This document shows positions 37,571-41,214 of a stretch of 64,000 nucleotides of DNA, in pieces. Both the position numbers and the translations under genes were made by a program. A model generated the notes under the pieces. It saw nothing but the letters and a program-made list of their open reading frames with translations, made no database searches and had not been told where the DNA came from. Each line of letters starts with the position of its first letter. Position 1 is the first letter of the stretch. The stretch is from Halopenitus malekzadehii (GTDB lineage: Archaea > Halobacteriota > Halobacteria > Halobacteriales > Haloferacaceae): the NCBI RefSeq assembly GCF_900108505.1, contig NZ_FNWU01000001.1, positions 620,001 to 684,000 on the forward strand. The letters run 5' to 3'.

Positions 37571-38857
37571 TCAGATCCCCTGACCCATCAGGTGGCTACG
37601 CAACACGTCCGGCGTCTTGAGTCCGGCTTCGGTGTTGAGCAGGACCACAGTCTCATCGCCCGCGAAGAACCCGTCCTCGGCCAACTCCCAGGCACCAGCC
37701 GGGGCCGCGCCGCCGGCGGCACCCATCTCGAGGATCTCGTGTTGGGCGACCGCCACGGCGCTTTCGAGGACGTCGTCGTCGCCGGCGGTGACGCCGCGCC
37801 CGTCGCTCTCGCGGATGGCCTCGACCGCCCACGCGCCGCCCGCGGGGTCGGCTATCTCCAGCTCGCCGCAGATCGTGTCGGGCGTGTCCCACGGCTCCGG
37901 CTCGTCGATCCCGCGTTCGAGCGCGGCGGCGATCGGCGCACATCCCTCGGCCTGTGCCGCGACGAGCCGCGGTCGGTCCTCGATCAGGCCGAGCGTTTCG
38001 AGCTCCCGGAAGCCCTTGGCGATCCCCACGACGAACTCGCCGCTGCCGGTCGGGATGACGACCACGTCCGGAGCGGTCCAGCCGAGATCGGCGGCCAGCT
38101 CGTAGGCGGTCGTCTTCGCGCCCTCGTGGCGGAACGGCGTCGCGAACTCGGTCAGGTCGGTGTAGTCTGTCGCGAGCTGCTCGTCGACCGCCGCGACCGC
38201 GTCGGGATGGCGCCCCCCGACGACGCGCATCTCGCCGCCGTGGACGTTCGTCATCGCCTTGTTCGAGAAGGCACATCGCGAGGGGACGAACGCGTACGAC
38301 CGCAGCCCGGTCTGTCCCGCGTAGGCCGCCATCGACTGGCCCGCGTTCCCCGGGGAGGCACAGACGAGCGGCTCGATGACGCCGGCGTCACCCGCGTCCG
38401 TCGCGACATCGCCGCCGTCCGCGTCCAACTCCGAGACGGCAGTCATCGTCACCGACAGGCCACGGTCGAGGGCGGTCCCGGTCGGGTTGCGCGCCTCGTC
38501 CTTGATGAACACGTCCGCGACGTCGAGTTCGTCCGCCAACCGATCGGCCGCGACGAGCGGCGTACCGCCCTCCCGCGCCGACAGGGCCGATGTCGCCGGG
38601 AACGGGAGAAGCGCGTCGAACCGCCACATCCCGTCCGCGGTCGTCCCCGCATCCGCGGCGGTCCCCGCATCCGCGGCGGCGTCCCCGATCGCGGTCGGAT
38701 CGATGGCCGCCTCGACCGCGGCCGGATCGACGGCGTCGTAGTCGTAGGTCGGATCGAGCGGTCCGCCGCAGTCGGGACAGCGGGCCGCGGCCACGAGGTC
38801 GTGGTCGGCCCCGCAGTCGTGACAGGCGAGTCCCGTATAGGCGTCAGTCGTCTCCAT
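37571..38857 (-). CDS. Threonine-synthase-like protein lacking the PLP lysine
   Basis: 428 aa. The N-terminus has a zinc-ribbon pair (CHDCGADH ... CPDCGG). The fold-type II PLP core is recognisable: DVFIKDEARNPTGTALDRG, LVCASPGNAGQSMAAYAGQTG and VVVIPTGSGEFVVGIAKGF. In threonine synthases the first motif reads NPTGSFKDRG, with the Lys as Schiff base. Here it is Leu130 (codon CTC, complement of 38468-38470), so no internal aldimine can form at the usual place. Other PLP-site loops (SPGNAGQS, PTGSGEF) are altered as well. It may be a pseudoenzyme or a subfamily with another activity; I recall similar haloarchaeal proteins, unverified. It is not frameshifted and is otherwise full length. Confidence 0.7.
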   Translation of the reverse strand: METTDAYTGLACHDCGADHDLVAAARCPDCGGPLDPTYDYDAVDPAAVEAAIDPTAIGDAAADAGTAADAGTTADGMWRFDALLPFPATSALSAREGGTPLVAADRLADELDVADVFIKDEARNPTGTALDRGLSVTMTAVSELDADGGDVATDAGDAGVIEPLVCASPGNAGQSMAAYAGQTGLRSYAFVPSRCAFSNKAMTNVHGGEMRVVGGRHPDAVAAVDEQLATDYTDLTEFATPFRHEGAKTTAYELAADLGWTAPDVVVIPTGSGEFVVGIAKGFRELETLGLIEDRPRLVAAQAEGCAPIAAALERGIDEPEPWDTPDTICGELEIADPAGGAWAVEAIRESDGRGVTAGDDDVLESAVAVAQHEILEMGAAGGAAPAGAWELAEDGFFAGDETVVLLNTEAGLKTPDVLRSHLMGQGI

Positions 38858-39963: not shown

Positions 39964-41214
39964 ATGGACGTGCGTCGAACTTCCGTCGTGAAACTCGCCG
40001 TTTCCGACGAGCAACGCGATGCACTCCACCGAACCGCCGACCAATACCTGTACTGCGCCAACCGAACCGCTGACTACTGTTGGTCCGAAGCAACATACAC
40101 GGAGTGCAAGACCAACAAGCGAGAGGTCCGCGACACACTCTACTCCGAACTCCGGGAGGAAACGGAGTTACAGGCACAACTCGTCCAAGCCGCGATTCGT
40201 CGCGCCGTCGAAGCCATCAAGGGCGTTGTCGAGCGATGGAAAAAGGGACAGCGCGTCTCTTGTCCCACGTTCACCGCCGAAACAATGGACTACGACGCGC
40301 GGAGCGCAACCATCTCCCGAAACAGGGTATCGCTGGCAACTGTTGAGGGCCGAGTCGAACCGTCGTTCGTTCTCCCAGCAGAGAGTCCGACACCCTACGA
40401 GCGGTACGTACTCTCCGAAGACTACGAGTTCCGCGAGAGTACCCTACGGTACGATGAGGCGACTGACGAGTTTTACCTCAATATTTCGACCCGGCGGACA
40501 GACGGTGACGACGCAGAGGGTCCTGCAGATACCGAGCACCCCGATCAAACGGTCCTCGGAATCGACCTCGGCGTCAACAATCTCGCTGTGTCCTCAACTG
40601 GCACGTTCTGGCAGGGGGACGACTACGACCACTGGTGTCGTGAGTTCGAGAAACGGCGCGGTGAGATGCAGCAGCGCGGCACGCAGGCCGCGCACAACGC
40701 CTTACTTCGACTCGGGAAACGCGAAGAAGCCTGGCGCACACAGTACATCCACACGATCGCCAACGAACTCGTCTCGGAAGCCGTCGAACACGATTGCGAT
40801 GTGATCGCGTTCGAGGAGTTAAGCGACATTCGAGAGCGGCTTCCACACGCGAAGTGGCACCACGTTTGGGCGTTCCGACGCCTGTTTGAATACGTTTCCT
40901 ACAAAGCCCCTGAACAGGACATCTCCGTGGAGAAAGTTGAGCCGAACCACACGTCCCAACGGTGTTCACGGACGGACTGTGGGTTCACGCACGAGGACAA
41001 CCGCCAGGGGGAACAGTTCGAGTGCCAGAAGTGCGGGTATGAGGTGAACGCGGATTACAACGCCGGAAAGAACATTGGCGTGCGGTACGCCCGAAAACGG
41101 ACACACAAACTCCGTTCCTCGCCCACGTCGGGGGGCGGAGACGCACTAGTAGACGTGCGTGTGAATGGTGGGATAGTGAACGGCAAGAGTCACCAGTCGA
41201 TTGCTGGCGACTGA
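39964..41214 (+). CDS. tnpB: TnpB, IS1341-type RNA-guided nuclease
   Basis: 416 aa. Split RuvC domain with all three acidic residues: Asp201 (VLGIDLGVNNLA), Glu284 (IAFEELSDIRERLP) and Asp364 (NADYNAGKNIG). Between the last two, a C4 zinc finger uses Cys334, Cys339, Cys354 and Cys357 (CSRTDC ... CQKC). The N-terminal part (VVKLAVSDEQRDALHRTADQYLYCANRTADYCWSE, described in part) is the usual OrfB helix-turn-helix-like region. Known TnpB proteins cleave DNA guided by an omega RNA from the right end of their element. TATA box TATAAATACC (39937-39946) is 18-27 nt before the ATG. GC is lower than that of neighbours, fitting a transferred element. No interruption is seen. Confidence 0.93.
   Translation: MDVRRTSVVKLAVSDEQRDALHRTADQYLYCANRTADYCWSEATYTECKTNKREVRDTLYSELREETELQAQLVQAAIRRAVEAIKGVVERWKKGQRVSCPTFTAETMDYDARSATISRNRVSLATVEGRVEPSFVLPAESPTPYERYVLSEDYEFRESTLRYDEATDEFYLNISTRRTDGDDAEGPADTEHPDQTVLGIDLGVNNLAVSSTGTFWQGDDYDHWCREFEKRRGEMQQRGTQAAHNALLRLGKREEAWRTQYIHTIANELVSEAVEHDCDVIAFEELSDIRERLPHAKWHHVWAFRRLFEYVSYKAPEQDISVEKVEPNHTSQRCSRTDCGFTHEDNRQGEQFECQKCGYEVNADYNAGKNIGVRYARKRTHKLRSSPTSGGGDALVDVRVNGGIVNGKSHQSIAGD

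Follow-up and report, generated by a model that had tools for sequence, protein, structure and literature searches.

How can a gene that resembles threonine synthase stay intact after losing the lysine that binds pyridoxal 5'-phosphate (PLP)? The question is raised by a stretch of 64,000 nucleotides from Halopenitus malekzadehii (contig NZ_FNWU01000001.1, positions 620,001 to 684,000; the whole stretch is called the window here). The open reading frame (ORF) at window positions 37571..38857 on the (-) strand encodes a lysine-less, threonine-synthase-like protein of the PALP type, PLP fold-type II (428 amino acids, ATG start, no internal stop). In haloarchaea the lysine of this gene has been lost repeatedly and in place, approximately five or more independent times. 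As the gene has nonetheless remained intact and under purifying selection, the role for which it is maintained is probably not the textbook threonine synthase reaction.

Leucine at the lysine site and an eroded PLP pocket

The PLP-lysine motif NPTG[ST]FKDRG reads NPTGTALDRG in the window protein (residues 124-133, positions 38459..38488; all features of this gene lie on the (-) strand). Alignment placed Leu130 (codon CTC, GAG on the + strand, 38468..38470) at the site of the PLP-binding lysine that a catalytic threonine synthase carries. The altered motif lined up without gaps with NPTGSFKDRG of the solved threonine synthases (alignment to PDB sequences), with which the window protein shares about 30% identity. 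The N-terminal zinc ribbon, Cys12-x2-Cys15...Cys27-x2-Cys30, was retained (38768..38824). An earlier note, made from the sequence alone, had described this substitution in a full-length protein with a zinc ribbon and no frameshift, and every checkable detail of that observation was correct. PF00291 (PALP) matched residues 94-409 with 194.8 bits (curated cut-off 35), and the AlphaFold2 model (mean predicted local distance difference test, pLDDT, 92.7) had a two-domain fold, both of which place the protein in PLP fold-type II. The best PDB matches of the model were all threonine synthases (Z 43-48; 47.6 for 2c2b and 46.2 for 6nmx), and the lysine-bearing orthologue L186 gave a similar result. 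The window protein scored below the cut-offs of both NCBIfam threonine synthase models (250.7 vs. 303 for PRK08197 and 128.7 vs. 167.1 for TIGR00260).

Other pocket residues have also changed in the window protein (F129A, A169P, G272S and V274E), with N171 and T409 retained. Its Asn loop reads SPGNAGQ (residues 168-174, 38336..38356), the counterpart of the PLP-phosphate loop reads TGSGEF with an acidic E274 (residues 270-275, 38033..38050; TGGGVG in lysine-bearing relatives), and T409 lies in the loop NTEAGLK (residues 408-414, 37616..37636). From known structures of threonine synthase and related enzymes, we take the Asn to contact PLP O3', the glycine loop to hold the phosphate and the Thr to contact the pyridine nitrogen. 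Lysine-bearing orthologues were near-uniform at F129, A169, N171, Y268, G272, V274, G275 and T409, whereas conservation in the lysine-less proteins fell from 100% to 7% at G272, from 100% to 20% at Y268, from 96% to 16% at A169, from 96% to 17% at F129 and from 96% to 73% at N171. T409, variable in the other lysine-less proteins, was down to 44%. The phosphate loop has turned from TGGGVG into an acidic TG[STH]GE, and the zinc-ribbon cysteines were missing in about half of the lysine-less relatives. Sign tests of co-decay on independent contrasts all pointed in the expected direction, although the five usable pairs were too few to reach significance. As far as the alignment indicates, no substitute lysine has been gained at any aligned position of the window protein, whose five remaining lysines (119, 200, 248, 281 and 414) all occur in lysine-bearing relatives too; a takeover by another lysine, which the earlier note had named as grounds for abandoning its reading, is thus not what the protein suggests.

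Thirteen residues (L, A, T, V, Y, R, I, D, H, E, G, F and Q) were seen at the lysine site across the family. Because the whole PLP pocket erodes and the residue at this site is free, we favour the view that the gene encodes a recurrently evolved pseudoenzyme. It would descend from a threonine-synthase-like PLP enzyme of haloarchaea, itself a paralogue of ThrC, and would have kept a non-catalytic function; we regard this as likely. The essential catalytic residue is gone from an otherwise intact predicted fold, and selection on the gene is purifying. The earlier note had offered a pseudoenzyme or another chemistry; the former is favoured, and the latter gained no support. An enzyme with altered chemistry would hold PLP non-covalently, or use another cofactor or substrate, in a reaction needing no aldimine lysine. 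The retention of N171, T409, R243, D131-R132, Q302 and other residues in or near the pocket would suit such an enzyme, as would the fold-type II K-to-A and K-to-T mutants in the PDB that still bind PLP adducts (O-acetylserine sulfhydrylase K41A and TrpB K87T). However, new chemistry would require a new residue fixed at the lysine site, where none is found; the losses were repeated with different replacements and the phosphate loop is broken and acidic, all of which makes this explanation unlikely.

Repeated loss at one chromosomal locus

A relative at E < 1e-60 was found in 383 of the 391 sampled haloarchaeal genomes. All inspected orthologues of the Haloferacaceae (family f1, more than 20 genera; motif read in the fetched loci) lack the lysine, which is also missing in many orthologues of families f2, f3, f4, f5, f7, f8 and f10; the families other than f1 show both states. 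Five genera were mixed (g26, g30, g41, g50 and g65), with NPTG[ST]FKDRG in some species and the lysine replaced by R, A, T, L, E or V in others. A sequencing error or a change in one strain, the other objection that the earlier note had raised against itself, is ruled out, since dozens of genomes that were sequenced independently of one another carry lysine-less orthologues. Both lysine states occupy one ancestral locus, together with genes for a metallophosphoesterase, a divergent FAD oxidoreductase, a DtxR-type regulator, and TMEM165-like and LysE-like proteins, and therefore the lysine was lost in situ. Family f4 has a second gene arrangement, which is likewise common to both states.

The first tree, built on all columns, united the lysine-less proteins, with few exceptions, in a single clade (Shimodaira-Hasegawa-like approximate likelihood ratio test, SH-aLRT, 98). 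In the second tree the zinc ribbon, the pocket and the adjacent conserved columns were removed, and the lysine-less proteins of f8, f2, f4 and g50 were then placed among their lysine-bearing relatives. With the pocket columns removed, the approximately unbiased (AU) test rejected a single lysine-less clade (p = 0.0039, log-likelihood difference 118). L214/L215 and L213 are nested within groups of lysine-bearing sisters, with which they have the flanking residues in common (HALAVSA and QTVAMTA), so no pocket was imported. Given this nesting and the rejection of the clade, the single clade of the first tree is largely a product of convergence, which misled that tree. The careful tree contained 7 state changes (6-8 across bootstraps), at least 5 of them forced by well-supported (starred) branches, and 0% of the bootstrap trees had one origin. 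The alignment of haloarchaeal threonine synthases that the earlier note had proposed, in search of a clade with the change, showed the change to be widespread, but as a recurrent loss and not as one clade. Homologous replacement is common in haloarchaea, and a history in which the lysine was lost once, long ago, and the lysine-less form then spread by gene transfer or homologous replacement would agree with the SH-aLRT value of the full-length tree; with the clade rejected outside the pocket and the nested proteins carrying the flanking residues of their lysine-bearing sisters, we consider it very unlikely.

We infer that the change ran from lysine to no lysine, because the lysine-bearing state has a complete pocket and is common to the outgroups. 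Two proteins, L116 (L116:7001-8173) and L247 (L247:6710-7879), read NPTGTVKDRG and keep the lysine, but have D in place of N171, a broken phosphate loop and no zinc-ribbon cysteines. As the lysine is kept in an otherwise broken pocket, they may be remnants, intermediates or reversions, and the same could apply to part of the seven changes.

Purifying selection and the function that probably remains

Median pairwise dN/dS (ratio of nonsynonymous to synonymous substitution rates) was 0.194 in 329 lysine-less pairs and 0.193 in 71 lysine-bearing pairs, values that are descriptive because the pairs share branches. Among the three Halopenitus copies it was 0.14-0.19. Approximately 20 positions were invariant in 112 lysine-less sequences, including R132, R194, R216, Q302, E334, D360 and R420. 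The C-terminal tail DVLRSHLMGQGI (residues 417-428, 37574..37609), which includes RSHLMGQGI, was near-invariant in lysine-less and lysine-bearing orthologues, with its R, S, L and M retained at 97-99%, and was missing from canonical ThrC and from the secondary lysine-bearing paralogues. The window gene has neither a broken frame nor a dN/dS near 1, and the remark in the earlier note that the change is not simply decay agrees with the intact frames, the dN/dS of approximately 0.19 and the near-invariant sites. Relaxed selection with slow decay, the gene heading for loss in all lysine-less lineages, is likewise very unlikely, for although a number of copies contain frameshifts or stops (L115, L127 and L199) and about half of the lysine-less proteins have lost the zinc-ribbon cysteines, dN/dS equals that of the lysine-bearing relatives, the frame has been kept through an entire family of genera after what appears to be a single old loss, and the invariant positions and the tail persist.

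The H. malekzadehii genome encodes 11 PALP proteins. The second, canonical thrC that the earlier note had suggested looking for is present as a gene separate from the window ORF (L005, C21:203662), with NPTGSFKDRG and a TIGR00260 score of 296 bits (cut-off 167). The same genome has a further ThrC-like paralogue on a very long branch (L008, C27:358155; NPTGSFKDRG, branch length 2.36). A separate ThrC-like group with NPTNTFKDRG, in which Asn replaces the Gly before Ser/Thr, is sister to the family studied here (L207, L208, L209, L133, L134 and L204). Obligate pairing of the lysine-less gene with a second lysine-bearing paralogue was rejected because the window genome and several others have no such paralogue. 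Mutants of H. volcanii thrC3 (HVO_2969) require Gly/Ser/Thr (PMC4300041), and this gene could not be matched to a given paralogue.

These data are most simply explained if selection maintains the gene for something other than PLP catalysis, or if its function was double from the start. Alongside catalysis, the ancestral protein would already have had a non-catalytic role, in which the tail and a conserved surface contacted a partner or a ligand. The PLP reaction would have become dispensable with a canonical ThrC present, joined in many genomes by a second paralogue that has the lysine; the catalytic site would then have been free to decay while the non-catalytic function was retained. More tentatively, and with somewhat less than even confidence, the whole haloarchaeal family, its lysine-bearing 'threonine synthases' included, may have an ancestral second function on the RSHLMGQGI tail and the conserved surface. 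PLP catalysis would be the dispensable half, abandoned in five or more parallel events, and a bifunctional enzyme would have been converted repeatedly into a protein that purely binds or regulates; L116/L247 would be examples of intermediates.

Four points weigh against a pseudoenzyme with a retained non-catalytic function. Such a function is deduced from constraint. Three lysine-less copies look broken, by a frame change or stops, so that some strains can do without the gene (L115:5998-7232, L199:7001-8181 and L127:7007-7996, in genomes G038, G340 and G316 respectively). The retention of N171 and T409 in the window protein makes some non-covalent cofactor binding conceivable, to judge by sequence. 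Finally, the FAD oxidoreductase of the ancestral locus lies approximately 138 kb from the gene in the window genome and is not adjacent to it in Halopenitus. Separately, a lysine-bearing copy, L135, is interrupted in the same way as the three broken ones.

Neighbouring genes and comparison with known systems

The FAD-dependent oxidoreductase (PF01593) was detected at 80 of the 104 lysine-less loci and at 24 of the 34 lysine-bearing loci; where present, it was divergent and less than 600 bases from the gene start at 50 lysine-less and 19 lysine-bearing loci. It scored under the cut-off of every named NCBIfam model and was single-copy, at the threshold used, in 14 of 14 genomes tested. Encoded divergently next to the gene in roughly half to three quarters of genomes, it is a candidate partner and the best genomic lead to a functional link, as distinct from evidence of one. 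The upstream ORF at L026 (438 amino acids) and the one at G000:C27:518655-520025 represent this FAD oxidoreductase, an uncharacterised haloarchaeal protein from the HpnE/phytoene-desaturase superfamily that is paired divergently with the gene in many genomes of either lysine state. The local gene order in Halopenitus is unusual, with dph5 and topA near the lysine-less gene; as conserved operon partners these two are uninformative, since the linkage is seen only in Halopenitus. A TnpB/IS605-type ORF with a Cas12f1-like TNB domain (PF07282, PF01385) lies directly upstream of dph5 and the lysine-less gene (39964-41214, + strand).

For hundreds of haloarchaeal genes that are likely to carry the annotation 'threonine synthase', threonine is probably not the product. 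No published account of the lysine-less gene was found in the literature searched, whose coverage largely excluded subscription journals. The closest enzyme is ThrC (PLP fold-type II, EC 4.2.3.1; PDB 1v7c, 6nmx, 2d1f and 2c2b), which has the same overall fold, the same order of zinc ribbon and PALP domain and the NPTG..DRG frame, whereas the window protein lacks the PLP lysine, has changed phosphate and Asn loops and carries the extra conserved C-terminal tail. The lysine-bearing haloarchaeal orthologues (NF006050/PRK08197 'threonine synthase'; 374 bits vs. 303 for L186) share its locus, tail, zinc ribbon and selection pressure at 50-55% identity, but keep NPTG[ST]FKDRG, SAGNAGQ and TGGGVGLVG; their threonine synthase reaction is putative.

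Pseudoenzymes as such are already known, also among PLP proteins. LCB1, a subunit of serine palmitoyltransferase, is of fold type I, a homologue of its catalytic partner, and serves as the heterodimer subunit of that partner. LCB1 (PMC3794620) and Rv3778c of M. tuberculosis, a cysteine desulfurase relative (PMC12910592), are PLP-family proteins without the PLP lysine that are presumed non-catalytic, and the cited passages describe no repeated lysine loss for either. What sets the present case apart is that a single chromosomal gene has lost the PLP lysine again and again in parallel, and with lysine-bearing sister species at the same locus this forms a natural before-and-after series. Pairs such as L226/L214 (g41), L233/L213 (g26) and L218/L108 (g50), lysine-bearing and lysine-less respectively, make it testable which function of an enzyme survives when catalysis goes. 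A parallel is found in the fungal Ssd1/Dis3L2 pseudonucleases: on at least four independent occasions their nuclease site was lost, with other regions and a second function retained, and a bifunctional ancestor has been proposed for them (PMC8097288). The two systems differ in fold, kingdom and chemistry, and the non-catalytic function of the fungal proteins, RNA binding, is known; common to both is the repeated loss of a catalytic site while other regions are kept.
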